From Verrucomicrobiota bacterium (GTDB taxonomy: Bacteria > Verrucomicrobiota > Verrucomicrobiia > Limisphaerales > JACPZS01): a stretch of 64,000 bases of DNA. Each line of letters begins with the position of its first letter. Position 1 is the stretch's first letter. This document shows, piece by piece, positions 21,121 to 61,563 of this stretch. The notes beneath the pieces were generated by a model. It made no database searches. It worked only from the letters and a program-made list of their open reading frames with translations, and was not told the origin of the DNA. The position numbers were made by a program, and so were the translations under genes. The stretch lies in the NCBI GenBank assembly GCA_016195385.1, contig JACPZS010000161.1, forward strand, positions 1 through 64,000, written 5' to 3'.

Positions 21121-24100
21121 TCACGCCGCCTTTGCTTCGGCAAGCGCCTCATCGAGGCAACTTGCGGCGGTCGGGAGTATGCGCCGCAAGTCGGCGAGAC
21201 GTTCGTTGAGTGCGCGAATCACGGTGCCGGCATTCGTCTCGATCAAGCGGCGGTACCATTTCAAAAATTCCTGGCTCGTCTCGATTTCGTTCGCCGGAGG
21301 CGCGAGTTTGCCCACGTTACCGTTGAGGACTTCGCAAACGATCAACGCGGCGAATTGGCCCGGCTGTGTCGGCGAGTGCGCCTTGCGCCACCACGGCAAG
21401 GCTGCTTTGGCGTCGCCGTTGAGCAGCAGCGCCTCGGCGCGATGGAGCGCAAGTTGTAAATTCTCCGGGAAGAATCTTACCGCTTCGCCCGTCCAGTCGG
21501 CAGCGAATTCCGCAAAGCCGGGTGTGCGCAGCGCGATGTATCCGCCCGCGAGCCACGCGGATTCGTCCTGCGCGGATTCGGTGACGAGCGCGTGCAGTTG
21601 TTTGATCGCGTCGAGCGCGCGGCTTTGTTCGGCGAGAAACTTTGCGTAGTCGAAGCGCGCCGGACGCGAAGTCGCATCATCGGCGAGCGCGGCTTGAAAG
21701 GCTTTTTCCACGTCGGCGGGTTTTCCAATTTTCGCGAGACACATCGCGAGGCAATGCTGCGGCGCGGCTTTACGGATGTCTTTGTTCACCGGACAGAGCG
21801 CGGGTTGATTTCGCTTCGCCAGGCACTCGCGCATCTGCGCGGCAGCTTCGACCGGCCGTTGCAATTCCATCAACGCGAGGCCGAGTGTGAAATGGAGCGA
21901 CGCCGTAAGACCAGCGGATTTCGCCAGCGGCGCTTGGAGCAGACGCACAATTTGGTCGAACTGTTTCGCGCCCATCAAATGTGTGGCGAGTTGCGTCAGC
22001 AGCGTTTCGCGCAGTTCGGGCACGACCTGGCTCGCCGGCAGCGCGGACATCAAGTGAAACGCCTCCCAGTATTGTTCGAGGCCGGCTTCCAATTGACCGG
22101 AGCGCACGAGTTCGAGGCCGAAGTTCATGATCAAGTTAGGCTCGTTGGGTAGTTCTTCGATCGCGCGTTCGAGCAGGCGCAAATTGCGCGCGACTTTGTG
22201 GCGATCCTGCACGACGGCTTTGGTGTAGCCGTGATGGAGCAACTTCGCCGTGCCGAGCCGGTTTTCCAGATTCCACTCCTGGCGGCGCACTTCGAGACTG
22301 CTGAACACTTGCTCGTGGATGCGGCCAACAAAAAACAGACCCGGGGCATTACGAAACAATCGCGGCACGTAACTGCAACCTTCTTCTTCCGGATCGATAA
22401 TCGGCACGCGATACGCCATCACGTCCGGTGCCTGCATTTCTTTCAACAGCGCAGCGCGGCTCTCCGGCAGCAACTCCTCGTCCGCGTCCAAAATCAAAAT
22501 CCAATCTCCGGTCGCGTGCTCTAGCGCGGCGTTGCGCGCGGCGCTGAAATCATCGCACCACATGAACGAATGAACTTCCGCGCCGAACTCTTTGGCAATT
22601 TCGACGGTGCGATCCGTCGAGCCGGTGTCCACCACGACAATTTGTTGCGCGAATTCGCGCACCGACTTTAAGCAGCCTGCGAGAAAGCGCTCTTCATTTT
22701 TCGTGATGAGACAAACCGTGAGTGTGGGCGTGGACGAATCACGCAGCAGCGCTTCAAGCAACGGCGGCAGCGCGGCTTGAATGCCCATTTTCTTGTTCGG
22801 CGCACGGAGAAATTGCTGCGCCGGACGCCACTTCGGCACCAGGGCCAATGCACGATCCGCGCAGAATTTGACGAGCGAAGTGTCGTCGTGGATGCGGGCA
22901 ATCTCTGCCAGCAACAGCCAGCCTTCGGGATGGAATGGCCGAGCGACAATCGCTTGAGCCGTGGTTTCCCAAGCAGCCGCAAGTTGATTTTCTTTCAACT
23001 GCGCGCGGGCTTGCACGAGGTTTCCAACTTTCGCTGTTTCGGGCAGGACGAGCGGCTGCGGCTTGCGGGCGCGACGTTTCGCGATTGCATCCGCTTCGGC
23101 CTGCCGGCGCGCAAGCAACTCGCGCGCGCACTGGGCGGTCGCTTGAGCAGCGCGCGCCCACGTCCACTCGCGGCGCACATGCGCGCTCGCGGCGCTTCCT
23201 TTCGCGCGGGCGTCGTTGGGTTGCGAGTGGACGTGACGCATCTGCTGACCGAGCGCGTCGGCGTCCGGTTCGAGCCACCAACCGTTGCCGGCGAGCGGCA
23301 TTCCGCTGACTTCCGGGCCGAGCGAATGACGCCGGGCTGGAATGCGAAAAGCAAATTCATCTGTGGCAAAATCATCCGTCGAACCACCGGCAGTGACGAT
23401 GACCGGCAGACCGCACGCCATTGCTTCGAGCACGGGCAGGCCGAAACCTTCGCCGCGGTATGGATGCACGAGACAATCGCACGCCGCGTACAGACCGGGC
23501 ATCGCGTCGGGCGGCAATTCTTGATCGAGATAGAGAATCGCGGGCGCGCTGGGGTTCGCGGCGAGCGCCTTGATTTGCTCCGCGAGCGTCTGGCCCGCAT
23601 AAACCGTGCTGCCGCCGAAATCTTTAATCACGAGGCACACGTCATCGGCAGCGGTGAAATTCTGCAAATACGCTTTCAACAATACGTCCGGCCCTTTGCG
23701 CTGAATGGTCCCGCCGACGAACAGAAATTTGAACTTCTTATTCGTGGCGAGCGGCAGTGGTTTCACTTCCGGGCGAAAGTGTTCCGGGTCAATGCCAAGC
23801 GGCACGACTTTCACTTTTGCCGGATCGACGCCGGAGTCGATGTAGGCTCGGCGCGTGTGATGCGAATTGACCCACGCTTCGTCCACTTTGCCGAGTTGCT
23901 TGACCCATTCCGCGGGCAGCACGCCAAATTCCCACGGCTGCATCATCACCCAAGCGCCGCGTTCGGGCGCGGTCCAGTCCGGCGGCCAGGCTTGGCGAAT
24001 GGTGAGCTGGGTTTGCTTCGACGCTTGCGGTTTCAAGCGCCGCGCGAAATCACGCAGTGAAGCGTCGGACGGAGCTTGCGCGCTCGTGGTGTTCTGGCCG

Positions 24101-27100
24101 ACGCAGGTCAATTGCACGCCGGGCAGTTTGGAAAGTTGTTGAGCGAATTCGCGATTGACGTACGACAGGCTGCCGAAATCCAGGAATGAACCTTCCCAGG
24201 CGACGTGAATAGATTGCGAGTTTGGTTTCGGCTGCGGCAAAGAACGCGCCGCCATAGCGAGGCAAACGGGCGTGATTAACTTTTGTTCGATGACTTCGAG
24301 CCGCGCCACAACTTGCGCGGCGACGGCTTCGCAACTGAAGCGCGCCTGCATTCGCGAACGCGCGACTTTTCCTTTTGCCACAGCTTCGGCGGGGTTTTGC
24401 TGCACGCGGCGCATCAATTCGCGCAAATGATTTTCCTTCGGATCGGCCCAGCGATGCCCGCGATAATGCCACAGCTCCGGCTCCGTGCGCGTGACTTCCA
24501 CCAACTCGTAGTCGATCAAGTAGGAATTCTCCGCATTCATGAACGCAGTGTTGCCGCTCCAATTCGTCGCGATGACGGGCACGCCCATCATCATCGCTTC
24601 GTGATGCGGCCGCCCCCAGCCTTCGCCGCGACTCGGCGCGACGAGGCAATCAACGGCTTTGTAAAGGCGCGGCAGTTCCGCAGTGGGAATTTGTTCCGCC
24701 AGAATTTCGATGCGCGGCAGTTGCTTGTCACCGAGCACAAGTGTCGCGGCGTGTTGATCAATCAACCGGCGAATTGTCTGCGTCGGATCGCCGTCCGGCT
24801 GATTGACGAGATACGCGCGGAGATAAAGACAGACATCGTCCTGCGCGGAGAACTCGCGCAGATACGCGGACAACAGCACATCCCCGCCCTTGCGCGACGA
24901 CCATTCAAACACGGAAAGGAAATTGAATTTGGCGCGATTCGGCAGCGGTAGCGCTGTGTGGCGCACGGGATCAAAATGGTTTGCATCGACCGCGCCGGGA
25001 ATCACGACAAGCTTGTCGCGCTCGACGCCGCTGGCCGCGAACGTCTCACGGTTGAACTCGCTCGGCACCCACACTTCGTCCATCTGATTGCAGCGCGTGA
25101 CCCACGCGAGCGGCAGGCGATCCGTTTCGAACATCGTGCGGCCGATGTTGTACGCTGCGCCGGGTTGCGGCGCAAAACTGCTGCCCGGCGTATGCGTGAC
25201 GCAGATTTTGCCGGCGACTTCCGCGCGCGAACGCAGATGCTCGCTGAGGTGTTTCTGCAAATTCTTCGGAAGCCCCTCGACGAAGGATTTGGATTTGGTC
25301 TTCGCAACAGCGAAGAAATCGAGCTTGAGCGAACGCGGGAGATCTTGCGTTAGCGAAAATGCTTCGCTGCAATAGCCACTGGGATTTTGCCACGGCGCGA
25401 ACCAGACGACGTCGCGATGCGCAACTTCTAGCGGTTGTAGCGTGGTTGTGACAGGCGACTGCGGCGGCGTGGGTTTGATTTGCAATATCGGTGACGGAAA
25501 ATTGCCCGGAACCGTGACCCTCGTTGGCTGCGATGTCAGGCCCAGCATTTCTTCCCACACCGCGATGGAGGCGCGCGCGGTGTTTTCCCAGGAAAATTTC
25601 GCGGCCTGCGCGCGCCCTTTCACGCGCATCGCGTCGCGCTGTCTGGGGTTCTTCAGCAGTTCGACCATCGCGCGGCCGATGGCGGCGACGTCGTTCGGCC
25701 GGAACATCAACGCGGCGTCGCCCGCGACCTCGGGAATGGACGAGACGCCCGTGGTGATGACTGGACAATCCTGCGCCATCGCCTCCAACACGGGAAAACC
25801 AAAACCTTCCCACATGGAGAGGAAGAGCAATGCGACGGCATCGCGGTAGAGCACTTCGAGATCGGCGCGTGGGATGAAGCCGGTGAAAATGATGTCGCGC
25901 ATTTTCATCTGCTCGCAATGCTCGGCGATTTGCTTGAGGAAATGTTCTTTCTGTCCGACGACGACGAGTTGCGCGCGCGCGGCGCCGCGCATGGCGCCCA
26001 TCGCTTGAATTACGGCGGTGAAATTTTTGTGCGGATCGAGCGAGCCGACATGCAGGAAAAACGGCTGCGTGACGCCGTATTTTTTGCGGATGTCGCGGAT
26101 CACTGCCGGGGAAATCTGCGGCTGCGTTTCGGCACGATTCAACCCGGCCATGATCGTATGCACGCGGTCAGCGCCGAGGAGTCCGCAATTGATCACTTCC
26201 TGGCGCGTGCATTCGGAAATTGCCAGCAGGCGCGGGGCGCGCGCGGCCAGTTGTGCCAACCGTTCAAGGTAAGCGTGCTGGGCCGGCTTTTTCCAGCTAT
26301 CGATGTAAAAACGCAACGGCGTGACGTCATAAAAAATCGAAGTTGTTTCAACTCCCGACAACCGTTGCATTGGCGAGTCGAATCCCGGCGCGAGCGTCAG
26401 CGGGTCGGGGATGTGATACAGCGCCACGTCCGCCACTTTGACTTCCGCAAGTGACTTGACGCGCACGTTCGGCAGTTTGAGCAGCCGTGAAATCGCTTCA
26501 CTCGTTCCCGCCGGATCGCCGAGAATCCAAAATTCCCAGTCCGGCTTCAACTCGGCGCATTTTTGCAGATGATGAAACGCGTAGTGGCCGACGCCGCGAG
26601 CCATCGAATCCCCGCAATAAAACGTCTGGCCATCCACGGCGATGATTGGCTTGCCAATGGAGGAACGTTTGGCGGGACGCGCGGAAGCGGCAGGCGCGCT
26701 GGACGCTGGCGCAGTTTGCAACTGCGACTGGAGGAGACGAAGCTGCGTGGCTTCATCCAGCAGTCCGTTCACCTCAGCGAGCAGGATGCGGAACTCGATC
26801 ATCGCTGGCACGACCAAGTCGCCCGTCGATTCGAGCGGCGTCCCTTGCGCGAGGGCGGTGAGCGCCTTATCCACACGCATGTCCGCGATGCGAAATTGCA
26901 AATCCGTCAACGGTCGCCGCGACTGCGCGGCCAGCCACGCGGTTTTCTGTTGGAGCGTATCGCCGACCAGCAGATGCTCGCCGGGCACGGCGCGGAAAGG
27001 TTTGGCGAAGGCATCCTTGCGCACGTAGCCGTGGCGGACGTACGAGCTGAACGGCGTGAGGATGATGCCGAAGAGTTGCGTCGTCGCGTCCTCGAACCAG

Positions 27101-28554
27101 GTGTTTTGCGTGCCGAAGAACAGAAATTTTTTCGTGTGATGCGGATTCGCGTCGAAGCGCTGCTTCTCGCGGCGCGCGAACGTGTGCAGCCGTTTCATCA
27201 TCAACGCGGCAAAGCGTCCGCCTTCCGGTGAAGGTTTCGGCACGGTGTAGCCCGCGCGATTTTTCGTCACCGGAAAATTACCCATCCAAAGATCCAGGCA
27301 CACCACGAATGAACGCTCATAAAGTTGCCCCACCTCGGTCGCGACACATTCCTGCGGCAACGGCCCGCGCCCGTCACCGGCAGACATGGCTTCGGGATCG
27401 AAAAGAGTTTTCCCTGTGTGGCCGAAGTTCTTGCGGAACTCGGTGATAAGTTTGATGAACCCGGCGTTGCCGCCCACGTAACCGATGTCCGCCGTCGCGG
27501 GAATCTGACTGAGATGATCCGTGATGTACGGCAGCGCATGCTGGATGTCGTAGAGCAGGCCGTGATTGTAGGCTTCGCCGACGAGCGCGTTGTGGAGCAT
27601 GGGCGCGTCGAGGCCAGGCAGCATTTGCTCGAGCACGCGGAGGTAACGATTTTCGTGTTCGGCGGTCAGTCGAATTTCTTCGACGGGTTCGTGCGGCATG
27701 CCCCAGGTTTCGGCCTGTTGGGGAATGTACGGCGTGTGAACGTCGTTGACGAAATGGCGCCAGTCGTTGGCGGTGCCGCCTTCGGCGGTGTGCATCATCG
27801 TGTTCACGCGCGTGTGATCGCAGTGATACGAATGATAATGGTCGAGCAGCGAAGAAGTTTTGCCGTTCAAGAGAAACAGCCGGCGGCAAAGATTGCTGTC
27901 CACGTGCCAGCCGAGCACCATCTGCTCGTTCATGCCGTGGATGGCGAACATCTGCTGGCGCGGCGCGAGTTGGAAATCGCCGGGGCCGTCGAAAACATTT
28001 TCCGGATTGCCGATCACGCATTCGTTGAGGTGCAGCCGGCGGCCCCAGTGCTTGAATTGTTCGATGGTTTCCTGCGGCTTCAGCCGATCTGTGGATTCCC
28101 ACAAAATTTCGGGCATCTCGAAACGCGGCAGTTCATAGAGACAATCAGGTAATTTGGCGACGATTTCCGAAAGCGACTGACCGGGCTTGACAGGCACGAA
28201 CACGATGTCGGTGTTCGTGTTGAGAATCCAGCGGTTCTTCGGATTCGAACGGCGCATGGCCACGTTGCGGCACAGCGGTTCGAGCACTTTCATCTTCGTG
28301 CCGTTCTTGCCCTTCTCGTACGACGCGGGACGGAAGCGGAGAATGCGAAGCAATTTCTTGGCGCGCTCGGTCAGCGTGTCGCGGATCGACTCGGGAAACG
28401 TCGGCAGGTCATCCGGCGTGTTGCAATCGACAAAAATGATCTCATCATCCGGATGCGTGAGCACTTCCGCAATGCAGTTGAAACTGAGCGCCGCGCGCTT
28501 GTGGAGGTTGTAGCCGTACGAATCGTTGCGGCCGTAAAGGATGACAGAAATCAT
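21121..28554 (-). CDS. Giant multi-module glycosyltransferase (about five GT modules plus TPR)
   Basis: This single frame of 2,477 residues is the last gene of the flagellin-linked cluster. About 1-330: a GT-A-like module (MISVILYGRNDSYGYNLHKR, DDEIIFVDCNT, WILNTNTDIVFVP). About 400-620: an unassigned region. About 650-1050: GT4 module 1 (FLHVGSLDPHKNF, EGFGFPVLEAMAQDCPVITT near 915). About 1080-1430: GT4 module 2 (EGWGRPHHEAMMMGVPVIAT near 1305). About 1460-1830: GT4 module 3 (KFLFVGGTIQRKGPDVLLKA, EGFGLPVLEAMACGLPVIVT near 1698). About 1940-2190: a GT2 module (TVCLITKNEERFLAGCLKSV, VVVDTGSTDRTVEIA, ILDADEELLPE near 2021). The rest is TPR-like. No signal peptide or membrane helix is seen, so it probably works in the cytoplasm, adding several sugars in turn; the acceptor is inferred to be flagellin or a lipid-linked glycan. 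Confidence 0.93.
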   Translation of the reverse strand: MISVILYGRNDSYGYNLHKRAALSFNCIAEVLTHPDDEIIFVDCNTPDDLPTFPESIRDTLTERAKKLLRILRFRPASYEKGKNGTKMKVLEPLCRNVAMRRSNPKNRWILNTNTDIVFVPVKPGQSLSEIVAKLPDCLYELPRFEMPEILWESTDRLKPQETIEQFKHWGRRLHLNECVIGNPENVFDGPGDFQLAPRQQMFAIHGMNEQMVLGWHVDSNLCRRLFLLNGKTSSLLDHYHSYHCDHTRVNTMMHTAEGGTANDWRHFVNDVHTPYIPQQAETWGMPHEPVEEIRLTAEHENRYLRVLEQMLPGLDAPMLHNALVGEAYNHGLLYDIQHALPYITDHLSQIPATADIGYVGGNAGFIKLITEFRKNFGHTGKTLFDPEAMSAGDGRGPLPQECVATEVGQLYERSFVVCLDLWMGNFPVTKNRAGYTVPKPSPEGGRFAALMMKRLHTFARREKQRFDANPHHTKKFLFFGTQNTWFEDATTQLFGIILTPFSSYVRHGYVRKDAFAKPFRAVPGEHLLVGDTLQQKTAWLAAQSRRPLTDLQFRIADMRVDKALTALAQGTPLESTGDLVVPAMIEFRILLAEVNGLLDEATQLRLLQSQLQTAPASSAPAASARPAKRSSIGKPIIAVDGQTFYCGDSMARGVGHYAFHHLQKCAELKPDWEFWILGDPAGTSEAISRLLKLPNVRVKSLAEVKVADVALYHIPDPLTLAPGFDSPMQRLSGVETTSIFYDVTPLRFYIDSWKKPAQHAYLERLAQLAARAPRLLAISECTRQEVINCGLLGADRVHTIMAGLNRAETQPQISPAVIRDIRKKYGVTQPFFLHVGSLDPHKNFTAVIQAMGAMRGAARAQLVVVGQKEHFLKQIAEHCEQMKMRDIIFTGFIPRADLEVLYRDAVALLFLSMWEGFGFPVLEAMAQDCPVITTGVSSIPEVAGDAALMFRPNDVAAIGRAMVELLKNPRQRDAMRVKGRAQAAKFSWENTARASIAVWEEMLGLTSQPTRVTVPGNFPSPILQIKPTPPQSPVTTTLQPLEVAHRDVVWFAPWQNPSGYCSEAFSLTQDLPRSLKLDFFAVAKTKSKSFVEGLPKNLQKHLSEHLRSRAEVAGKICVTHTPGSSFAPQPGAAYNIGRTMFETDRLPLAWVTRCNQMDEVWVPSEFNRETFAASGVERDKLVVIPGAVDANHFDPVRHTALPLPNRAKFNFLSVFEWSSRKGGDVLLSAYLREFSAQDDVCLYLRAYLVNQPDGDPTQTIRRLIDQHAATLVLGDKQLPRIEILAEQIPTAELPRLYKAVDCLVAPSRGEGWGRPHHEAMMMGVPVIATNWSGNTAFMNAENSYLIDYELVEVTRTEPELWHYRGHRWADPKENHLRELMRRVQQNPAEAVAKGKVARSRMQARFSCEAVAAQVVARLEVIEQKLITPVCLAMAARSLPQPKPNSQSIHVAWEGSFLDFGSLSYVNREFAQQLSKLPGVQLTCVGQNTTSAQAPSDASLRDFARRLKPQASKQTQLTIRQAWPPDWTAPERGAWVMMQPWEFGVLPAEWVKQLGKVDEAWVNSHHTRRAYIDSGVDPAKVKVVPLGIDPEHFRPEVKPLPLATNKKFKFLFVGGTIQRKGPDVLLKAYLQNFTAADDVCLVIKDFGGSTVYAGQTLAEQIKALAANPSAPAILYLDQELPPDAMPGLYAACDCLVHPYRGEGFGLPVLEAMACGLPVIVTAGGSTDDFATDEFAFRIPARRHSLGPEVSGMPLAGNGWWLEPDADALGQQMRHVHSQPNDARAKGSAASAHVRREWTWARAAQATAQCARELLARRQAEADAIAKRRARKPQPLVLPETAKVGNLVQARAQLKENQLAAAWETTAQAIVARPFHPEGWLLLAEIARIHDDTSLVKFCADRALALVPKWRPAQQFLRAPNKKMGIQAALPPLLEALLRDSSTPTLTVCLITKNEERFLAGCLKSVREFAQQIVVVDTGSTDRTVEIAKEFGAEVHSFMWCDDFSAARNAALEHATGDWILILDADEELLPESRAALLKEMQAPDVMAYRVPIIDPEEEGCSYVPRLFRNAPGLFFVGRIHEQVFSSLEVRRQEWNLENRLGTAKLLHHGYTKAVVQDRHKVARNLRLLERAIEELPNEPNLIMNFGLELVRSGQLEAGLEQYWEAFHLMSALPASQVVPELRETLLTQLATHLMGAKQFDQIVRLLQAPLAKSAGLTASLHFTLGLALMELQRPVEAAAQMRECLAKRNQPALCPVNKDIRKAAPQHCLAMCLAKIGKPADVEKAFQAALADDATSRPARFDYAKFLAEQSRALDAIKQLHALVTESAQDESAWLAGGYIALRTPGFAEFAADWTGEAVRFFPENLQLALHRAEALLLNGDAKAALPWWRKAHSPTQPGQFAALIVCEVLNGNVGKLAPPANEIETSQEFLKWYRRLIETNAGTVIRALNERLADLRRILPTAASCLDEALAEAKAA

Positions 28555-28580: not shown

Positions 28581-29963
28581 TCATGCGGCCGACGCCGTGG
28601 CCAGATTGTCCTCGCGATGAGTTGCGAGCCGCGCCGGGGCGGCGAGGCGGCTGTAAATGATTTCCAAAACTTCGGCCAGTTCCTCGTTGCGTTCCCGCCG
28701 CGCCGAAGCCAGGTGGTAGAGGAGCATGGGCACCAGCGCCGGTTGACCGCGCGTGCCGTGCTTTTGGATCTCGGCGGAAATGTCGCGGGACGCGAAGAGC
28801 GCGTTGAGCGCTGCCGTGGCGTTCTCCACCTCGGATTCAGAAACCGGCTCCGGCCGGTTGAGCATCCGGCCAAGCGTATGACGCAGGCGCAGCATCTCAG
28901 GATTCGCTTCTGCCGGTGCGGGCGATGCGAAAGACGGCTGCGTGGACGCGAGCCTTTCCCGTCCGAAATGAAATAGTTTCCCTTCCTTGATGGCAGCGTC
29001 GAAAACCTTGTTGTAGTGTTGGTACGAAAGCTTTTCCCCCGCGAGTTCCGGCGTGAGCGCGTCGAGGCAGTAATCGAAATCAATGAGCGGCGCCAATTCG
29101 CTGCGGAATTTTTTCAGCAGCTCAATCGCGCAGTCCGGCAAATCAAAAATTTCAAAGAGGCAGGCGAGCTTGAGCTTTTTGATCGGGGAAAATTCGCGGG
29201 GCCACATGCGCTCAAAATCCGCGTCGCCGAGATCCTGGAAATACAACGCCTCGCCCCATTGCACGGCACCGTGCGTCGTTTGCGCGGGAATGTCGTAGAG
29301 AAACGGACGCGGCAGATCCGCGCGGCTGTAGCGATAGACATCGAGATTGAACAAGGTGAAACCTTGGTTACGGAGCAGACGATCGATGTTGCCGAACAAA
29401 TTCGCTTCGTCATCAATCGGGCCGAGGAATGGGCACTCGACCGTGAGGCCGAGGACGCCGCCGGCGGCGAGCGTCTGGCGCGCGCCGACAAGCACCGGAT
29501 AATCAGAACCATCGGTATCAATCTTGATGAAATCGACGGCACGGCGATTCGATTCGGGCAGCCATCCATCCACGGTGAGCTGTTTCTTCGACCACACCAT
29601 TTCCGCGCCGGAATTGAACACCTGCTGCTGATAATTCAGGTTCATCAAGCCGGTGGCACGCACCGCGCTCGTGCGCTGGAACGAGCCATTGTTGCGGGCG
29701 GCGATTTTGTCCAGGGGCTGCGTTGGCATTCCGGAGCCGACGAAGCCGTCCTCGTAGCGCACGCGTGGATTCGTCTCGATGCGATTGAGCCGCTCAACCT
29801 CGGTGACGAGCGGATCAAAGCCCGTGGCTTTCAGGTAGGGCTGGAAAACATTCCAATGTGGCTGGATGCCGCCGCTCGCGCCGACATCGAGCAGGAAAAA
29901 TTCCTCGGCGCTCAGGCAGCCTTGGGCGAGGACGTGTTTTGTGAAAGGAGTTTGCGAGTTCAT
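28581..29963 (-). CDS. FkbM-family methyltransferase with a cluster-specific C-terminal domain
   Basis: This is a 460-residue protein. The N-terminal part (about 20-270) is an FkbM-type SAM methyltransferase: FFLLDVGASGGIQPHW (SAM-binding loop), KATGFDPLVTEVERL, SAVRATGLMNLNYQQQ, DFIKIDTDGSDYPVLVGARQ and LTVECPFLGP. Such enzymes O-methylate sugars in glycans. About 361-450 is a separate helical domain (LGRMLNRPEPVSESEVENA, VPMLLYHLASARRERNEELA, EVLEIIYSRLAA) that is also present at the end of the neighbouring GT2 protein (29982-31223). It is 18 bp from that gene and 26 bp from the giant glycosyltransferase, within one operon, and is likely to cap or decorate the flagellin glycan. Confidence 0.88.
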   Translation of the reverse strand: MNSQTPFTKHVLAQGCLSAEEFFLLDVGASGGIQPHWNVFQPYLKATGFDPLVTEVERLNRIETNPRVRYEDGFVGSGMPTQPLDKIAARNNGSFQRTSAVRATGLMNLNYQQQVFNSGAEMVWSKKQLTVDGWLPESNRRAVDFIKIDTDGSDYPVLVGARQTLAAGGVLGLTVECPFLGPIDDEANLFGNIDRLLRNQGFTLFNLDVYRYSRADLPRPFLYDIPAQTTHGAVQWGEALYFQDLGDADFERMWPREFSPIKKLKLACLFEIFDLPDCAIELLKKFRSELAPLIDFDYCLDALTPELAGEKLSYQHYNKVFDAAIKEGKLFHFGRERLASTQPSFASPAPAEANPEMLRLRHTLGRMLNRPEPVSESEVENATAALNALFASRDISAEIQKHGTRGQPALVPMLLYHLASARRERNEELAEVLEIIYSRLAAPARLATHREDNLATASAA

Positions 29964-29981
29964 GGTGAGCTAAGTTGGGAT

Positions 29982-31223
29982 TCAGGCGGCGTGAGCGGTG
30001 CAGCGGCCGTAAATGGTTTCCAGCGCCTCCGCGAGCACATGGTTTTCCTCCATCCACGCCGCTTGCAGATGTTGCGCAATCAGCGGCACCGTGGCGGGGG
30101 GAAATTGCGCGATGCGGTCGCGAATGTGGGCAAGTGGATCCTCGGCGGTTACGATTTCGTTCAACGTGTTCATGGCCGCCACGAGGTCGGCTTCCGAAAC
30201 CGGCTCGGCTCGGCCGAGCATGCGCCCGATGCGCTGGCTCAACACCTCGAACGAACTGGCTGAATCGTTCGTTGGACCTGCGTCCGTCGGTAAATCAGCG
30301 GCTGCTTTTGGCGCGGGATCGCTGGTTGGATCACGAGCTTCCGTTTTCGCGGAAATCCTTTGGCGCACGCTTTCCAGCGGCTTGGCCGAGGGCGCGAGAC
30401 TTTCCGCCAGGTTGAACAGCCGTTCAAACTCGGCCGACTGTCCCTCGATGCGCAGCAAAGATTCCGCCGCCCAGGCGTAAATTCCCCCCACGGCCTCGCG
30501 ATAAATCTCGTGGTCGATGCCCACGCCGGCGCGCGTCAAATGGCGGCCTAACGCGGTGATCTTGTCCTGGCAGAACTGTTCGTACGTCGCGGCGCGGCAA
30601 CTCATGCTGTGCTCGCTGATGCGCGTGCTGCCAAAGAGATCCTGAACGAGATGGATCGGCAGATGGCTCAAACGCAGCCAGAGATCGAAATCCGCGCAGG
30701 TCTTCAACGTTTCGTCGAAGCGCAGTTCATCGCCACAAACCGCACGCGCGAAAAACGAAACCGAAAAGGGTGGAACCACTTCGCAACGCCGCAGACCCGC
30801 CAGCTCAAATTCGGGCGGCGTCCACGTGCTGGTGATTTTTCGGTGCTCGTCGATCATGTGCGACACGCCGTAGAACGCCGCCCAATCGGGGTGGGCTTGG
30901 AATTGCGCCGCCGTTTTTGCCAGCGCGTCCGGTTCGAGCAAATTATCCGCGTCGATGGTGCCGATGAGCGCGCCCTGGCAGCGGCGCACCGCGCGATTGT
31001 AGGCGTCGCCGATGCCGCCGTCCGGCTCGGACACGATTTCGATGGCCGGCAAATCGCAGAGGCTCCGTAGATATTCGAGCGAGCCATCGGTAGAACGCGC
31101 GTCCTGAACGATCAGTTCAAAGTCGCGAAAGGTTTGCGCCCGGACGGATTCGATTGCTTGTGGCAAATAGGGCATCCCGTTTTTGACGCAAAGAATCAGG
31201 GAGATAAGTGGAGTCGAGGACAT
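29982..31223 (-). CDS. GT2-family glycosyltransferase with a cluster-specific C-terminal domain
   Basis: This is a 413-residue protein. Residues about 7-230 form a GT-A fold glycosyltransferase of family 2: ISLILCVKNGMPYLPQAIES, FELIVQDARSTDGSLEYL, SEPDGGIGDAYNRAV and LIGTIDADNLLEPDAL (the DxD-type metal site). It has no membrane segments. The C-terminal domain (about 328-413: IGRMLGRAEPVSEADLVAA, VPLIAQHLQAAWMEENHVLA, EALETIYGRCTA) matches the one on the adjacent FkbM protein. It is 13 bp from the C-methyltransferase gene upstream. It probably transfers one sugar of the same glycan; donor and acceptor are unknown. Confidence 0.9.
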   Translation of the reverse strand: MSSTPLISLILCVKNGMPYLPQAIESVRAQTFRDFELIVQDARSTDGSLEYLRSLCDLPAIEIVSEPDGGIGDAYNRAVRRCQGALIGTIDADNLLEPDALAKTAAQFQAHPDWAAFYGVSHMIDEHRKITSTWTPPEFELAGLRRCEVVPPFSVSFFARAVCGDELRFDETLKTCADFDLWLRLSHLPIHLVQDLFGSTRISEHSMSCRAATYEQFCQDKITALGRHLTRAGVGIDHEIYREAVGGIYAWAAESLLRIEGQSAEFERLFNLAESLAPSAKPLESVRQRISAKTEARDPTSDPAPKAAADLPTDAGPTNDSASSFEVLSQRIGRMLGRAEPVSEADLVAAMNTLNEIVTAEDPLAHIRDRIAQFPPATVPLIAQHLQAAWMEENHVLAEALETIYGRCTAHAA

Positions 31224-32545: not shown

Positions 32546-33556
32546 TCAGGCAGCTCGAGAAATGGGCGGCGCAGACGAAGCCTGCGGACGGAGATGCGCA
32601 TGCTCATCGTACCAGCGCGCCACGCCGGGCAAACCAGCGCGGAACGCGACGCGCGGCGCAAAACCAAGCCGGCGGAGTTTCGTGATGTCAGGACAACGGC
32701 GCAGCGTGCTGCCGGGCTGGAGCGGGCCAGGCTGTATCTCGATGGCGCGTCCGAAGTAGCGGGCCACTTCGCGGGCGGCTTCGGCCACGCTCGTCTCTTC
32801 GTCCGAACCCACATGATAGATGTTCAGGTGCTCACCGCGATCGAGCAGGAAGGCAAGCCCGTCCGTGAAATCGTCGATGTGCGTGAACGCGCGCGTCTCG
32901 GAGCCGGTGCCTTGAATCGGAAAATGGATCGTGCCCGACGAAGCCGTGCAAAGTTCCTTCAGCCGCAGGACGAATTGCGGCAGGACGTGCTCCCAGCCCA
33001 TGTTTGGCCCATAGACATTGTGTGGACGAAAAATCACCACGCGATCGAAGTGAACGCGGCCGTAGTTGATCGCAAGAAGTTCGCTGATGATTTTTCCGCC
33101 GCCATACGAATAGCGCGGGTTCAGCGGATCCGGGACCGAGAGCGGCGCGGATTCGTCCGTCGGAACCGTGGGCGGTGTTTGATAAACCTCGGAGCTGGAC
33201 GCCAGCGCCAGTTCACGCACACTAGCAGCCCGGCAGCCATTTAGCACGTTCATCATTCCCGTCACCGCGACGTCGAGAATCAAATCCGGCTTCGTGTAAA
33301 AAAATTCCGTGCCATTGACATAAGCCAGGTGGATGACGCTCTCCACGCCGTGACAAGCGCGGCGCACGGTTTCCGCGTCGCGGATGTCAGCGCGAACAAA
33401 CTCAAGTTCACTCATCACGTCTCGCAGCCGATCGGCGCTGCCGCGCGAATCGTTGTCGAGCACCCGCACGCGATGACCGTCGCGAAGCAGACGTTGGACG
33501 ACCGCGCTGCCGATGAAGCCAGTGCCGCCGGTGACAAGATAATTTTTTGCGCTCAT
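32546..33556 (-). CDS. NAD-dependent nucleotide-sugar epimerase/dehydratase
   Basis: ATG 33556 is chosen: it gives 336 residues starting MSAKNYLVTGGTGFIGSAVV, with the Rossmann GxxGxxG at the very N terminus, and overlaps the aminotransferase stop as ATGA. Catalytic Ser/Tyr/Lys features are LALASSSEVYQTPP and YSYGGGKIISELLA (YxxxK). RPHNVYGPNMGWEHVLPQFV and the SETRAFTHIDDFTDGL stretch are typical of extended SDR enzymes acting on UDP- or dTDP-sugars. The exact reaction (4-epimerase, 4,6-dehydratase or reductase) cannot be told by eye. It is coupled to a PLP aminotransferase, as in amino-sugar pathways. Confidence 0.93.
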   Translation of the reverse strand: MSAKNYLVTGGTGFIGSAVVQRLLRDGHRVRVLDNDSRGSADRLRDVMSELEFVRADIRDAETVRRACHGVESVIHLAYVNGTEFFYTKPDLILDVAVTGMMNVLNGCRAASVRELALASSSEVYQTPPTVPTDESAPLSVPDPLNPRYSYGGGKIISELLAINYGRVHFDRVVIFRPHNVYGPNMGWEHVLPQFVLRLKELCTASSGTIHFPIQGTGSETRAFTHIDDFTDGLAFLLDRGEHLNIYHVGSDEETSVAEAAREVARYFGRAIEIQPGPLQPGSTLRRCPDITKLRRLGFAPRVAFRAGLPGVARWYDEHAHLRPQASSAPPISRAA

Positions 33557-34731
33557 GCGGCGATCTTCGCGATGGCGCGCTTGGGCAATGGCGTCATGGT
33601 GCGATGCGCTTTCGCTCCACTGTCTGATCGGGATGGTTGCGCGGCCCATTCGACTACCGCGCGGCAAACCGTGAGCACATCCCCATCAGTCAGCGTAAAC
33701 GCTGACGGCAACCAGAGCGCGTTCGGTCCCAGCCGGGTGCTGTTCGGAAAACGATCGTTGGTTGCTCGATACGGCGTCTGCGTGTGCAAAGGGAACCAGA
33801 AACGGCGGCAGAAAATCTGGCGCGCTTCCAAAAACTCGACCAGCGCGTCGCGGTCTTCCACCAGCGCATCCGTCCATTGCGGCACTTCGCCGGCGGCGAG
33901 ATCGAAGCCTGGCAATGTGATTGGTTCGCAGTCGGCCAATTCCACGGCGTAGATCGAAAAGATTTTCTTCTGGCGCTCGATTCGTTCCGGCAACGCGTCA
34001 AGCTGCGCCAGCCCCACAGCCGCCTGTAGGTTGGTGAGTTTGAAATTGAAGCCGACAGCGTGATGCACGTCATCGCCGCCCGTGCCGCGTCCGCGACGGC
34101 CGTGATCCTTCAACTCACGCAATCGCGTGTGCAGCGCATCGTCATTCGTTAGCACCATTCCGCCCTGGCCGGTGGTGATCGTTTTGTTCGGCGAGAAGGA
34201 GAGGCAACCGGCCGCGCCGATGGTTCCAAGACATTTTCCGTCTAGACGCGAGAGCAGCGCCTCGGCGGCATCTTCGACGACGAAGAGATTGTGCGCTTCG
34301 GCCACGCGTCGGATCGCGGGCAGGTCGGCGGCGCGTCCACTGACATGCACCGGCATGATGGCTTTGGTGCGCGGGGTGATCGCTTCGGCGATCTGCCGCG
34401 GGCAGATGTTGAGCGTGAGCGGGTCCACATCAACGAGCACCGGGGTGGCGCCCGCAAGCTTCACCGCATTGGCCGTAGCAATGAACGTGATGTCCGGCAC
34501 GATCACTTCATCGCCCGGGCCGACGCCCAGCGCAGCCAGTGCGAGGAACAGTGCAGTGGTTCCGCTCGTGACGGCGACGGCGTGTTTCGCTCCGACCAAC
34601 GCAGCGACTTCGCACTCGAAGCGTGATGTAACTTCGCCGTCATTGAGATAATTGCTCGCGAGCACTTCTGCGATCAGGTGTTGCTCCGTGCCGGCAAGTT
34701 GCGGTGACCACCAGGGAATGGGTTTGTTCAT
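33553..34731 (-). CDS. DegT/DnrJ/EryC1-type PLP sugar aminotransferase
   Basis: This 392-residue protein has the motifs of sugar aminotransferases: EVAALVGAKHAVAVTSGTTA, GDEVIVPDITFIATANAVKL, LFVVEDAAEALLS, and the PLP lysine in LSFSPNKTITTGQGGM followed by LKDHGRRGRG. It converts a keto-sugar nucleotide into an amino sugar with glutamate as donor. ATGA overlaps link it to the formyltransferase upstream (34728-34731) and the epimerase downstream (33553-33556), so the three are translationally coupled. With the formyltransferase it points to a formamido sugar. Cytoplasmic. Confidence 0.95.
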   Translation of the reverse strand: MNKPIPWWSPQLAGTEQHLIAEVLASNYLNDGEVTSRFECEVAALVGAKHAVAVTSGTTALFLALAALGVGPGDEVIVPDITFIATANAVKLAGATPVLVDVDPLTLNICPRQIAEAITPRTKAIMPVHVSGRAADLPAIRRVAEAHNLFVVEDAAEALLSRLDGKCLGTIGAAGCLSFSPNKTITTGQGGMVLTNDDALHTRLRELKDHGRRGRGTGGDDVHHAVGFNFKLTNLQAAVGLAQLDALPERIERQKKIFSIYAVELADCEPITLPGFDLAAGEVPQWTDALVEDRDALVEFLEARQIFCRRFWFPLHTQTPYRATNDRFPNSTRLGPNALWLPSAFTLTDGDVLTVCRAVVEWAAQPSRSDSGAKAHRTMTPLPKRAIAKIAA

Positions 34732-35423
34732 GCGTCTTTTCGTGATGGCAGTTCAAAGCGCAGACCGGCGACCTCCATGAATGGGCCGGGGAATCGGCTG
34801 TGACGAACGGCGCGTTCCTTTCGGGCGATAAGCTCCGGCGAATCGTTCGGCGAGAGCGTCATCCATTTTTCAAACTCTTTCCGCGTGATTGCTTTGCGCC
34901 GCCAGGAGTCGCCGGAGGGTTCGACAAGCCCGCTGCTCGCGACGCTGGCGAGCACTTCGTAGAACTGCATCAACGAGTAATTCAGGCTGCGGTTAAAGAG
35001 CTGCTCGCAGGTCTCCGCACGCAGGATGGGAAAACGAAGCACGCGGAGGATCGGGCCGGCGTCCACTTGACCTGTCATTATGTGAGCCGTCACGCCGAAG
35101 TCAGAGGCATTCTCGAAAAGCGCGAAACTGGCGGAGCCAATGCCGGGCCATTCGGGAGGTGCCGGATGAAAATTGATCGCGGCGCGCGTCACCTTCGCGA
35201 GCAGTGCTTCCGGCAGGATCACCGGGGAGAGAAAATTGAAAAGAAAATCGATCGGTTGCCGGGAAAGCATTTGATCCAACTCGGGAGGCAGTGATTTTTG
35301 ACCGCGTCCCTGCCGGCCGATGAACCGGACTTCGAAGGCGCTCCGCGCGAATTCCTCGGCCGAGTTGGCCAGGTGCTCGTGGTCCGAGGTGAGCAGTACG
35401 CAAGAGTAAGGAAGTGGGTTCAT
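34728..35423 (-). CDS. Formyltransferase-family protein (probable sugar N-formyltransferase)
   Basis: This is a 231-residue protein of the methionyl-tRNA formyltransferase fold. The catalytic region is clear: INFHPAPPEWPGIGSASFAL (His of the Asn-His-Asp set) and TAHIMTGQVDAGPILRV (the Asp). It lacks the C-terminal tRNA-binding domain of true Fmt enzymes (about 310 residues), and lies between a nucleotide-sugar dehydrogenase and an aminotransferase, overlapping the latter by ATGA. The likely reaction is transfer of a formyl group from 10-formyl-tetrahydrofolate to the amino sugar made by the neighbouring aminotransferase. N-formyl sugars are known from O-antigens and surface glycans; the assignment to the flagellin glycan is inference. 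Confidence 0.85.
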   Translation of the reverse strand: MNPLPYSCVLLTSDHEHLANSAEEFARSAFEVRFIGRQGRGQKSLPPELDQMLSRQPIDFLFNFLSPVILPEALLAKVTRAAINFHPAPPEWPGIGSASFALFENASDFGVTAHIMTGQVDAGPILRVLRFPILRAETCEQLFNRSLNYSLMQFYEVLASVASSGLVEPSGDSWRRKAITRKEFEKWMTLSPNDSPELIARKERAVRHSRFPGPFMEVAGLRFELPSRKDA

Positions 35424-35432
35424 GCGGGCGCG

Positions 35433-36692
35433 TCACGCGACCTGGGCTAGTCGCTCGTGAACCTCTTTCTCTTTCACTGTTTGCCGCGGTATTACTCCCC
35501 ACACATCCACCAACTCGGTGTCGCTCGGAACAAAAAGCTTTTTGTAAGCGCTGTGCGGCGCGCCGACGATGACGACATCGCTGGTTGAAAGAAGTTCCTC
35601 CTTGCTGACAAACGTCGGATCCTGCGCGAATTCGTCGGAGTAGGACACCTGCGCGCCGTGGAATCGCAGAATCTTGCCGAGCTTGTAGGAGAGCGAATCG
35701 CGCGTGTCGTCGATGTCCGCCTTGAAGGCCATGCCGAGGATTCCCACTCGCGTGTGCGCCAGATCACGCTTCTGGCGCAACTGCTCGACGATAAAATTAG
35801 GCAGCCCTTCATTCACCATCATGGCCGCCTGGCCGAGCGCGAAATTGTAGTTGTTGAACGCGGAGAGTTGCATCGTGTCCTTGAGCAGACACGGCCCGGC
35901 GGCAAAGCCTGCGGCCGGCAGGCTTGCCGCGCGGCCGTAGCCTTGGATCATCGCTTCGCGGACGTGATTGAAATCCACGCCGAAGCCTTGGGCCATCATG
36001 TAAAATTGATTTGCGGCGGCGAACTGGATGTAGCGCCACGCGTTGGAAAAAAGTTTCGCCAACTCTGCCTCCTCGATGGAGACGGGAATGACGCGCGGCG
36101 CAATCCGGGAGAAGAGTTGCATGGCGTCGCGCTGCGCCGCATCGGTGAGGCCGGCGGCGAGCTGGGGTAACTCCTTGAGTTCGCGAATCGCGTGTCCCTG
36201 CGCGATGCGTTCCGGACAGTACGCGATCCGCCACGGCCCGCTGCCGTCCCGGCTCAACGCGTCGTGAACGGCGCGACAGGTGCGCGGGAAAACGGTACTA
36301 CGAATGATCAGCGTCTGCGCGGGCGAAAGGTGCGGCCGTAGGAGCGCGAACAAATCGAGCAACGCCTTGAGCTTCGGATTAAGGTATTCGTCCACCGGCG
36401 TGCCGACGGCGATGATGATATGGCGCGCTTTCGCAACGTCGCACACATCCGCAGTCAATTCCAAATTGCGCCCGAGCACCGCTTGGAGAATCGGTTCCGC
36501 GGCGTATTCGACGAATGGCATCTTCCTCTGGCGAACATGCGCCAGGGCTTCTGTGTTCGTGTCGAACAAAGTGACGCGCGCGCCGCTTTCGGCGAAAGCC
36601 AGCCCCAGCGGCAAACCGACGTGGCCTAATCCGCCGACAATGCAAATGTCGGTCGAGAATTGATTGGCTGCGGAAGACGAGTTGAAGTTCAT
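35433..36692 (-). CDS. Nucleotide-sugar dehydrogenase (UDP-sugar 6-dehydrogenase type), first of two
   Basis: This 419-residue protein starts with the NAD-binding motif CIVGGLGHVGLPLGLAFAES. Further on: IIIAVGTPVDEYLNPKL, ELAKLFSNAWRYIQFAAANQ, the catalytic cysteine in FAAGPCLLKDTMQLSAF, and VGILGMAFKADIDDTRDSLS, as in UDP-glucose/UDP-ManNAc dehydrogenases. It oxidises C6 of a sugar nucleotide to the uronic acid in two NAD-dependent steps. ATGA overlap with the Nudix gene upstream; 9 bp to the formyltransferase. A second, only distantly similar member of the family lies at 39046. Exact sugar unknown. Confidence 0.92.
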   Translation of the reverse strand: MNFNSSSAANQFSTDICIVGGLGHVGLPLGLAFAESGARVTLFDTNTEALAHVRQRKMPFVEYAAEPILQAVLGRNLELTADVCDVAKARHIIIAVGTPVDEYLNPKLKALLDLFALLRPHLSPAQTLIIRSTVFPRTCRAVHDALSRDGSGPWRIAYCPERIAQGHAIRELKELPQLAAGLTDAAQRDAMQLFSRIAPRVIPVSIEEAELAKLFSNAWRYIQFAAANQFYMMAQGFGVDFNHVREAMIQGYGRAASLPAAGFAAGPCLLKDTMQLSAFNNYNFALGQAAMMVNEGLPNFIVEQLRQKRDLAHTRVGILGMAFKADIDDTRDSLSYKLGKILRFHGAQVSYSDEFAQDPTFVSKEELLSTSDVVIVGAPHSAYKKLFVPSDTELVDVWGVIPRQTVKEKEVHERLAQVA

Positions 36693-37276
36693 GCGGCCTG
36701 GGAGGTTGTCCGTGGCGTCAGTTGTTCCAGTCCGCTGATCCGCAATTCGTACAGAAACAAGACGCCGATGTGGAGCTGAAGACCGAACGCGCCCGAGCGG
36801 ACGAGATTCTTGAGTTGATCGAAGGTGACGAATTCGAGATCCATGCCTGGTTCGTGAATAAATGCCGCATTCGGTTCGCCGGTTTCGACGAAGAACGCGT
36901 GTTGCTTGTTTTCCAGCCGGCCCGTGTCGGCGAAAAACGAGCCGAGGTGCGTGAGCGACTTCACTTCGAGGCCGGTCTCCTCGCGCAATTCGCGGCGACA
37001 GGTTTGTTCCGGGTCTTCATTGGCTTCGAGCAAGCCGGCCGGCAGTTCCCAAGTGCAGGCTTCAATTGCTGGCCGAAACTGGCGGACCACCGGGAACAAA
37101 CCGCCCGGCGTGCGTGCCAGGATCGTGATGTAGTCGCGCGGCGCGAGAAAATGGTAAACCTCCGGCGGTTGGCCGGGGGCAAATTCGACTTCTTTTTCAA
37201 TCAGCCGGACCCACGGTGAAATGCGCGTTTCGCGGCGGGAAAGGATGCGGGCGGGCGAAGGGCGGACGGTTTTCAT
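36689..37276 (-). CDS. Nudix hydrolase (ADP-ribose/ADP-sugar pyrophosphatase type)
   Basis: ATG 37276 gives 195 residues; the longer reading runs into nadE. The Nudix box is complete: GLLEANEDPEQTCRRELREE followed by TGLEV (GX5EX7REUXEEXGU). Flanking sequence (YITILARTPGGLFPVVRQFR, CTWELPAG, FFADTGRLENKQHAFFVETG) resembles ADP-ribose or ADP-sugar pyrophosphatases. The gene starts 5 bp after the NAD synthetase stop and overlaps the sugar dehydrogenase by ATGA, so it is made with NAD-making and NAD-using enzymes. It may recycle ADP-ribose from NAD breakdown or hydrolyse a sugar nucleotide; I cannot decide which. Confidence 0.93.
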   Translation of the reverse strand: MKTVRPSPARILSRRETRISPWVRLIEKEVEFAPGQPPEVYHFLAPRDYITILARTPGGLFPVVRQFRPAIEACTWELPAGLLEANEDPEQTCRRELREETGLEVKSLTHLGSFFADTGRLENKQHAFFVETGEPNAAFIHEPGMDLEFVTFDQLKNLVRSGAFGLQLHIGVLFLYELRISGLEQLTPRTTSQAA

Positions 37277-37281
37277 GCGAG

Positions 37282-40611: not shown

Positions 40612-42270
40612 TCAAACGGGTTTTTGAAACAACAAACCGATCGACGTGCAGACAAAATTTCCGAGCAGCAGTTTTAGATGGTTGAGCTGCGGGTGTGTTG
40701 AGTAGGGCGGTACATCGATGTAACGATCCACCGGGCCACTGCCGGGATCGAAGTTAAGTTCGATGCGACTGACGGCAATGCCGTGTTCCGCCGCGATGGC
40801 GCTGGCGATTTCCTCGATGTCGCGCCGGCGATAGAGAACGGTTTCGCCGCTTTCGAGTGTGGCGTCGTTCGAGGAGAGATTGAATTCGGTCGTGTGGACG
40901 GCGACGCCGCCCGGCTTTAAGCAGCGCATTTGATTGAGCAGAAATTCGCGGCCGTGTTCGATCGAGCCGAGGTGCTCGAAGGAGCAGGTGGACCAGGTGA
41001 AATCAAACTGACCGGCCATGAGGTCGGCGGGGATCTGATTCATATCGACCGTGCGGAACTGAACGAGTCGCGCGAACTCCGCGTAATCGCAGATGCCCTC
41101 GATAAAAAGATTTTGGACGCTGCTGCTGTGCTGGTTCGTGTCAACCCAACCGCGTTGCGCGGCGGTTGTGTGATCCAGATCGGTTGCCAGAATCTCACAA
41201 CCATGTTTCGCGAAATAAGCCACGAGATGTTCGCGACCCGTGCCGAAGCCGAGTCCTTTGGATGCGGGCGTCAGCAGACCGCGCTCGCGCAACGCGCGCA
41301 CGATGAAGCCGTATTCCCAATACTTGCGATTGAACTGCTCGGCGGAGAGTTTCAAGTCGCGGCACATTTGTTGAAACCAAGGCTGGCTGTAAGCTTCCTG
41401 CTGGCAAAGTTCGACGGTGATGAGCGGCAGTTTGGCGCGCGGCCCCACCACTTTTTGGGCCGTGGGTGGTTGCGTGAGTTTTTGAAAGTGATCGACCTTG
41501 TCTGCAATCACTCGCGCCAGTGGATGGCTCGCGGGAATTCGCCGCAGCACTTGTTGAAAACAATCCCGCGCGTTCGGCCAAGCGTTCATCGTCACGGCGG
41601 CGAAACCGCGGTTGAGCCACGCCGCCGCTTCCTCTGAAACGCCCGCGAGCGAATACTGTTCGTCGCGCAGCGAAACCCGCGCTGCCTCGGCCTCTGCGAG
41701 CGTGCGTTCCACGACGGCGAGATTCGCGCGCGCGGCTTCGTGCCCGGGATCGGACTGGAGAATTAACTGAAACGCTTCACGAGCTGAGTTCGGATCGCCG
41801 GCTTTGAAGAGGCAAGTGCCCAGCTCCAGCAGCGCGTCGAGATCATTCGGCTGAACCAGTAAAATTTTATGATAGGCTTGCGCAGCTTCGACGAAGCGCT
41901 GCAAACGGAAATGGAGCCGGGCGGACAGACGGAGGATCTCACTGTTGGCGGTTTCGAGTTGGGCGGCTTGACGCGCGTAATGGGCAGCGAGTTCCAATTC
42001 GCCAAGCTGGTCGAGCACCAGCGCGAGATTCACAAAGGCCGGCGCGTGCTGCGGATCAATTTCAGCGGCGCGTTCAAAAGGGCTGCGGGCCGAGGTCAGG
42101 TCGCCGAGTTGGAAATGCGTGTAGCCGAGGGCGACCAGCACTGGAGCGGTGGCCGGTTCCGAGAGGAGCACTTCCTGGAGGCAGTCGCGGGCGCCGGCGA
42201 AATCACGCCCATTGAAGAATTTTTCCGCTGCGGCGAGGGCGGGGGCGGGGTTGATTTCGATCGCGACCAT
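40612..42270 (-). CDS. TPR protein fused to a SAM-dependent methyltransferase
   Basis: This is a 552-residue protein. Residues about 1-290 are TPR repeats (VLVALGYTHFQLGDLTSARS, AFVNLALVLDQLGELELAAH, ALLELGTCLFKAGDPNSARE). The C-terminal half is a class I methyltransferase-like domain: LGFGTGREHLVAYFAKHGCE, ILATDLDHTTAAQRGW, FDFTWSTCSFEHLGSIEHGR and MRCLKPGGVAVHTTEFNLSS. There is a good ribosome site AGGAG 9 nt before ATG 42270. It is the first gene after flagellin (114-bp gap, no clear terminator). TPRs may hold the substrate protein; methylation of flagellin or its glycan is a reasonable guess. The substrate is not shown by the sequence. Confidence 0.88.
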   Translation of the reverse strand: MVAIEINPAPALAAAEKFFNGRDFAGARDCLQEVLLSEPATAPVLVALGYTHFQLGDLTSARSPFERAAEIDPQHAPAFVNLALVLDQLGELELAAHYARQAAQLETANSEILRLSARLHFRLQRFVEAAQAYHKILLVQPNDLDALLELGTCLFKAGDPNSAREAFQLILQSDPGHEAARANLAVVERTLAEAEAARVSLRDEQYSLAGVSEEAAAWLNRGFAAVTMNAWPNARDCFQQVLRRIPASHPLARVIADKVDHFQKLTQPPTAQKVVGPRAKLPLITVELCQQEAYSQPWFQQMCRDLKLSAEQFNRKYWEYGFIVRALRERGLLTPASKGLGFGTGREHLVAYFAKHGCEILATDLDHTTAAQRGWVDTNQHSSSVQNLFIEGICDYAEFARLVQFRTVDMNQIPADLMAGQFDFTWSTCSFEHLGSIEHGREFLLNQMRCLKPGGVAVHTTEFNLSSNDATLESGETVLYRRRDIEEIASAIAAEHGIAVSRIELNFDPGSGPVDRYIDVPPYSTHPQLNHLKLLLGNFVCTSIGLLFQKPV

Positions 42271-42384: not shown

Positions 42385-43197
42385 TTATTGCAGCAGTCGT
42401 AGCACGCTTTGGGGCAACTGGTTGGCTTGCGCGAGCATCGCCGTGCCGGATTGGACGAGGATGTTGTAGCGGGCGTATTCGGTGGTTTCCTCGGCGATGT
42501 CCACATCCTTGATGCGGGAGGTCGAGGCCGAAAGGTTTTCTTTGGTGACCACGAGTTGCTCGGAGGTGTAGTTAAGCCGCGTTTGGAACGCGCCGAGCAG
42601 CGCACGATCCTGGGCGAGTTGCGTGATGGCGGCTTTGACGTTGGTGAGCGCGGTGGCGGCCGCAGTGGTGGTGGCGATGTTTGAGGTCGGAGTGTTGGTG
42701 GTGGTCGTGTAAGCGGCAACGCTCAGATCCACGCCGGCCATGTTGAAGGTATTGCCTTCGGAATCGATCGTCACGTTGAGGCTCGCGGACGAGAAGAGGC
42801 TGACGCCATTGAAGTCTTTGCCGGCGGCGTTGGTGATGTACGCGGCGAGTTGTGCGAATTCGCTGTCATAAAGCGCACGGTCGCTATTGGACTTGGTGAC
42901 ATCTTGCGAAAGGATGGAAAGTTCGCTCATACGGTCGAGCGCTTTGCCAATCTTCTGGAGGTAGCCGTCCTGGGTCTGCGTGAACGATGTCGCATTGCCC
43001 ACGTTGGATTTGGCGGCGTCCAGACGTTTTATCTGCGCATCCAGGCGCATGGAGACCGCAAGGCCGGCGGCATCATCCGATGGAGAGACGATTTTGGAGC
43101 CGGAGCTCAAGCGATTGAGCGATTTGGCCAGCATGGTTTGACTGGCGGACAGGTTGCTGGCAGCGGCCTGGGCCTGGATGTTGGTGTTGATGACCAT
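42385..43197 (-). CDS. fliC: Flagellin
   Basis: This 270-residue flagellin has the conserved D0/D1 ends: MVINTNIQAQAAASNLSAS, SLNRLSSGSKIVSPSDDAAG at the N terminus, and SASTSRIKDVDIAEETTEYA, RYNILVQSGTAMLAQANQLP, QSVLRLLQ at the C terminus. The variable middle (about 130-185) is short, with a Thr/Ser/Ala-rich stretch (AYTTTTNTPTSNIATTTAAA) that offers many O-glycosylation sites. No export peptide is expected, since flagellin leaves through the flagellar type III system. Its leader (31 bp after csrA) carries CsrA-type motifs. The next 13 genes on the strand look like its modification machinery. No hook or basal-body genes are in the window. Confidence 0.97.
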   Translation of the reverse strand: MVINTNIQAQAAASNLSASQTMLAKSLNRLSSGSKIVSPSDDAAGLAVSMRLDAQIKRLDAAKSNVGNATSFTQTQDGYLQKIGKALDRMSELSILSQDVTKSNSDRALYDSEFAQLAAYITNAAGKDFNGVSLFSSASLNVTIDSEGNTFNMAGVDLSVAAYTTTTNTPTSNIATTTAAATALTNVKAAITQLAQDRALLGAFQTRLNYTSEQLVVTKENLSASTSRIKDVDIAEETTEYARYNILVQSGTAMLAQANQLPQSVLRLLQ

Positions 43198-61206: not shown

Positions 61207-61218
61207 ATGTCAGAAAGC

Positions 61219-61241
61219 GTCTTGACACATTCAGTCAAGAC
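61219..61241. promoter_or_regulatory. Inverted repeat at the start of the XRE gene, likely operator
   Basis: A perfect 8-bp inverted repeat GTCTTGAC/GTCAAGAC with a 7-nt spacer lies immediately before the ATG at 61243. Controller-type XRE proteins of restriction-modification systems bind such symmetric sites at their own promoter. Confidence 0.5.
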
Positions 61242-61242
61242 A

Positions 61243-61554: not shown

Positions 61555-61563
61555 CAAGCGACC

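Follow-up and report, generated by a model that had tools for sequence, protein, structure and literature searches.

A shared C-terminal helical module on two unrelated enzymes of a Verrucomicrobiota flagellin cluster: a possible docking domain

Little is understood, to our knowledge, of the way in which enzymes that tailor glycans single out one protein acceptor in the cytoplasm. The locus analyzed here, a window of 64,000 nucleotides (the whole stretch of DNA under analysis) from a genome of the phylum Verrucomicrobiota, brings this question down to two adjacent genes of the minus strand, which encode an FkbM-family methyltransferase of 460 aa (28581..29963) and a GT2 glycosyltransferase of 413 aa (29982..31223). 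A preliminary description claimed that the two proteins share a tail although their N-terminal enzymes are unrelated, and that this tail is a movable helical module, perhaps a docking domain. Is the common tail real, where else does it occur, and what could it be for?

The methyltransferase matches Pfam Methyltransf_21 (PF05050; E 2e-8, aa 128-203) with 35 bits against a curated cut-off of 22.7; with 24.7 bits it falls below the NCBIfam TIGR01444 cut-off of 37.7 and is a divergent member of the FkbM family. The glycosyltransferase matches Glycos_transf_2 (PF00535; E 2.1e-21, aa 8-147) with 77.1 bits against a cut-off of 23.3. A DxD-type motif is a mark of GT2 glycosyltransferases, and IDADN in the translation was scored as such. 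No TPR match was found in either protein with Pfam.

Both genes lie in a minus-strand cluster with the order FliW, an ORF which we take to be CsrA-like, flagellin (42385..43197; Pfam Flagellin_N and Flagellin_C), a TPR and methyltransferase protein (40612..42270; TPR_2 and Methyltransf_11), an NDP-sugar dehydrogenase, NAD synthase, ORF 36689-37489, a second NDP-sugar dehydrogenase, formyltransferase, DegT aminotransferase, epimerase, C-methyltransferase, the GT2 and FkbM proteins with their tails and, last, a giant multidomain glycosyltransferase of 2,477 aa (21121..28554). In the giant enzyme Pfam detects GT4-type domains in three stretches, GT2 and TPR. The GT2 stop is separated from the FkbM start by 18 bp and the FkbM stop from the giant start by 26 bp. 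Flagellin is the presumed glycan acceptor, and the dehydrogenase, formyltransferase, aminotransferase and epimerase (32546-36692, minus strand) suggest synthesis of a formamido-type amino sugar. Two neighbors may be singled out: the protein next to flagellin, in which a TPR array is joined to a methyltransferase, has an FlmG-like layout with a methyltransferase replacing the glycosyltransferase, and the NAD synthase, which carries a carbon-nitrogen hydrolase domain (37282-39012, minus strand), is found within a flagellin glycan cluster. Elsewhere in the window (61207-63983) an HTH protein, a methylase-like fragment, a PemK/MazF-like ORF and a phospholipase-D-like ORF look, by eye, like a restriction or toxin-antitoxin patch.

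The C-termini of the FkbM and GT2 proteins (~90 residues) are homologous. Their Smith-Waterman score is 161, as compared with a mean of 32.1 (sd 5.9, maximum 67) for 5,000 shuffled pairs, whereas the catalytic N-terminal parts reach 31, no more than the mean of 32.8 obtained after shuffling, and are not homologous. The shared tail and the unrelated enzymes in front of it, as originally claimed, are thereby confirmed. The local alignment spans aa ~343-444 of the FkbM protein and ~305-412 of the GT2 protein with 40-43% identity, and its core comprises aa 356-444 (28632..28898, minus strand) and 325-412 (29988..30251, minus strand), respectively. In the translations the core is preceded by a linker, which is Pro/Ala/Ser-rich in the FkbM protein (aa ~337-355; 28899..28955, minus strand) and Pro/Ala/Asp-rich in the GT2 protein (aa ~291-324; 30252..30353, minus strand). 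Three motifs follow each other in the module: GRML(N/G)R(P/A)EPVSE, VPx[L/I]xxHLxxA and LAExLExIYxR. The first and third had been given correctly in the preliminary description; the second, quoted there as VPxLxxHLxxA, needed correction, as the FkbM / GT2 proteins read VPMLLYHLASA / VPLIAQHLQAA. Codon identity between the two tails is 0.54, 0.69 and 0.46 at positions 1, 2 and 3, with an amino-acid identity of 0.43. The better conservation of position 2 than of position 3 indicates constraint at the protein level and not a recent DNA copy.

Apart from the query itself, a search of the complete genome (5.9 Mb) with the FkbM tail retrieved nothing at E<=10 except the GT2 tail (E 2.9e-13), so that the genome holds two copies of the module, both in the window. 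Similarity of tails but not of heads was also sought among ORFs of at least 300 aa from the window and related loci (228 among 424 ORFs). Only seven pairs were found, of which three are due to the module and four were taken as related proteins or overlapping/antisense ORFs; shared tails are thus no general habit of these clusters.

No meaningful sequence relative of the module was detected in profile searches of Pfam, NCBIfam or PDB. This does not by itself prove a new fold. A Pfam scan of all four module copies at E<=10 found no TPR family, the sole match being DUF6376 (E 0.036) in one copy. A literature search found no such module described in titles or abstract openings, and on these searches the module is apparently undescribed in the libraries covered. 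AlphaFold2, run on a three-row alignment, returned five helices (construct residues 7-19, 28-43, 47-54, 62-75 and 79-93) with a mean pLDDT of 82 and a pTM of 0.69; the module is therefore predicted to be a small, independently folding five-helix domain. Foldseek gave no match to it in PDB at E<=0.001, and the best Z obtained with VIA-align 2 for 84 chains was 4.6 (none was >=5), within the chance range for helical bundles. The flagellar export chaperone 1orj, which served as the FliS comparison, aligned with Z 2.0 and an rmsd of 5.7 over 67 residues, indistinguishable from chance for such bundles. A single-sequence fold of the whole GT2 protein was poor (pLDDT 47) and was set aside.

The module is rare. 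A first search of 97 relatives gave 13 genomes at E<=0.1, with only the window genome and a second one, G012, strong. With a three-row model clear copies were found in 3 of 320 genomes of the order, namely these two and G077, and with a four-row model none of 386 other genomes drawn from the phylum had the module at E<=0.001 (1 of 387 with the window genome included). An exact-peptide pattern scan of genome contigs matched only the G012 contig, CAIYYI010000571.1, from an uncultured Verrucomicrobia bacterium; a copy that has diverged as far as that of G077 would escape such patterns. Another scan of genome contigs yielded no relative, and a scan of viral sequences no module. Both G012 and G077 are incomplete drafts (89% and 56%).

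Weak matches to the three-row model were obtained in G023, G003, G115 and G033 (E 0.001-0.005 per genome). The four-row model, applied to 4,721 frames, gave E 0.0097 for G115, 0.016 for G023 and 0.13 for G003, with G033 unlisted and a best match to reversed sequences of E 0.27. G023, G115 and G033 were dropped as module carriers because no giant or flagellin match surrounds these sites (L027, L029, L030). The G003 match (L028 10348-10584; RLAQALGKAAGRRGPIS; E 0.003 with three rows, 0.13 with four) lies within a giant relative, where it seems by eye to be flanked by TPR-like and GT2-like parts; it is a plausible reading but not a significant one.

The catalytic parts were followed separately. 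Among 244 other genomes the only relative of the FkbM part at E<=1e-15 is found in G087 (39% identity), and this protein ends at residue 346, before the linker and the module, so the tail is dispensable for the FkbM catalytic part. An ORF near that gene (L118 10444-12465) resembles, by eye, the NAD synthase of our cluster. A search of 145 other genomes with the GT2 catalytic part gave no relative at E<=1e-30.

What the module accompanies in the other two genomes proved informative. G012 belongs to a different family of the same order, and here the module terminates a tandem SAM methyltransferase (Methyltransf_24 and Methyltransf_23), again after a Pro/Ala/Ser-rich linker, so that such a linker precedes each of the three stand-alone copies and is always rich in Pro and Ala. 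The gene ends 3 bp ahead of the ATG of a giant enzyme collinear with that of the window, with 77% identity over the first 205 residues and 52.7% over aa 151-2476 (the G012 giant gene is split over two contigs, each compared separately). The cluster also holds a FliW relative, flagellin and, by eye, a TPR-like protein, the latter situated after flagellin (L015 12311-13090) as in the window. Thus the FkbM and GT2 enzymes are replaced in G012 by a tandem methyltransferase, and different catalytic parts carry the same tail before an orthologous giant. The N-terminus of the window giant occurs in close form (68-77% identity) in only these two of the 320 genomes of the order, and both have the module immediately upstream; more distant relatives (38-43%, in much shorter frames) are present in five others.

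In G077, from the same order, the module (E 4.8e-8) is located within a giant enzyme of 3,399 aa, where it directly follows a Methyltransf_23 domain and precedes a GT2-like domain. This giant has its last ~1,040 residues in common with the window giant (51.5% identity), and the N-terminus search of the 320 genomes did not find the window-type N-terminus in it. Two genes separate this giant gene from a flagellin gene that lies upstream of it on the same strand. Judged from its sequence, the G077 protein is a 'Rosetta stone' fusion of the module with a giant relative. Altogether the module occurs in four catalytic contexts, on an FkbM methyltransferase, a GT2 enzyme and a tandem methyltransferase and at a Methyltransf_23 domain within a giant. 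Pairwise identity among the copies is 19-40%, and G, R, P, S, N and H columns are invariant in the alignment of the three closest. With these contexts, the predicted independent fold and the tail-less nearest FkbM relative, the notion of a movable helical module is supported.

All three genomes with the module have flagellin and a giant glycosyltransferase in the cluster. This family of giants, with frames of up to about 5,000 aa, is much more widespread and often found beside flagellin; the C-terminal part of the window giant (its conserved TPR part) is present in 120 of the 320 genomes of the order. No module was detectable at 40 giant loci (L071-L110; 39 other genomes, mostly high-scoring), so giants do not generally need it. 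Flagellin was found at E<=1e-50 in the stretches around 12 of these 40 loci and more weakly at two others (L100, L075), and this is a lower bound as many stretches are cut by contig ends. Linkage to flagellin is therefore partly a property of the giants, and the three of three for the module are by themselves only modest evidence. The preliminary description needs correction in that the module is rare and most giants of this type lack it.

A linker followed by a small helical domain on interchangeable enzymes, kept when the enzyme is swapped and present within a giant, is the pattern of a docking domain. We give an even chance to the reading that the module recruits tailoring enzymes to a flagellin-glycan complex. 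Its most probable partner would be the giant enzyme, since the giant gene is both the common neighbor and the fusion partner; docking on the giant specifically is possible but on the doubtful side, and the TPR and methyltransferase protein beside flagellin is an alternative candidate. The five-helix domain would be tethered to the C-terminus of a tailoring enzyme by the flexible Pro/Ala-rich linker and would bind a component of the complex that glycosylates flagellin, most probably the giant glycosyltransferase encoded just downstream, which may serve as docking platform. The tethered methyltransferase and GT2 enzyme would then be locally concentrated around the flagellin glycan on which they act as it grows. 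The docking domain of the preliminary description accordingly agrees with the tether anatomy and with the neighborhood of giant and flagellin in three of three genomes, while the binding partner stays conjectural. Two findings that could have told against it did not materialize: a well-known domain of another function was not found in the libraries searched, and similarity is not lost in relatives, the module being retained in G012 and G077. Some observations do weigh against docking. As the G077 giant lacks the window-type N-terminus, a docking site there cannot be common to all three; at 19-40% identity, binding need not be conserved; and module, giant and flagellin could be linked through having been inherited together as a single cluster.

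Of the other explanations, the one that survives best, although we consider it unlikely, is that modules self-pair, or that the GT2 tail pairs with the FkbM tail, and that the small enzymes are thereby brought together with no part played by the giant. The two copies on adjacent genes of an operon-like run and the predicted small helical bundle would suit such an oligomerisation tag, but G012 and G077, drafts as they are, have one copy each, so hetero-pairing is not general, and the G077 copy sits in a single large protein. Somewhat less probable still is binding of the module to flagellin or its chaperone (FliS, FliW), so that the enzyme is brought near its acceptor, a role that the TPR domain has in FlmG; flagellin in every module cluster and the FlmG precedent (PMC7591256) speak for it, but giants are often beside flagellin without any module, and the module has no TPR match. 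The weakest proposal, a 3' end copied long ago between neighboring genes and retained as a helical tail that stabilises the protein but binds nothing, would account for the two adjacent copies, the rare distribution and the tail-less FkbM relative, but is improbable given the recurrence, in other families of the order and each time in this context, on a third enzyme and within a giant, the much better preserved second codon position and the invariant columns.

A tag of ~90 residues that is carried now by a methyltransferase, now by a glycosyltransferase, in the neighborhood of a giant glycosyltransferase offers a small testable part for the question of how an acceptor is found, and if the docking reading is correct, it would lend itself to linking enzymes of choice to the glycosylation complex. 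Docking domains are classical in polyketide (PKS) and non-ribosomal peptide synthetases (NRPS), where short domains at subunit ends order the multienzyme, and such systems show split and fused versions. The module likewise occurs split and fused; its three stand-alone copies are all C-terminal, and two of the genes concerned, that of the FkbM protein and that of G012, are followed directly by the giant gene. PKS/NRPS docking domains differ in belonging to another pathway and in having no sequence match to the module, and on the giant enzyme a cognate element was not found. Tentatively, and short of an even chance, some flagellated Verrucomicrobiota may possess a PKS-like assembly line for flagellin glycans, in which a giant multi-glycosyltransferase backbone works with interchangeable tailoring enzymes joined via, or fused through, a shared and previously undescribed docking domain. 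FkbM-family methyltransferases are encoded in the flagellin glycosylation islands of Geobacillus; the passage on them in PMC5109656 does not mention a C-terminal module, and the presence of such an enzyme in a flagellin glycan cluster is what these islands have in common with the window. Targeting helper domains on flagellin-modifying enzymes are already known: FlmG, the flagellin glycosyltransferase of Caulobacter, depends on a separate TPR domain for its binding to flagellin (PMC7591256). In both cases a non-catalytic helical domain is attached to a flagellin-modifying enzyme, with targeting established for FlmG and presumed for the module. Neither the FkbM nor the GT2 protein has the FlmG-type layout of TPR fused to GT-B in one protein. 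The FlmG domain is an N-terminal TPR array of ~310 residues (PMC7591256), whereas the module is a C-terminal, non-TPR domain of ~90 residues common to unrelated enzymes.
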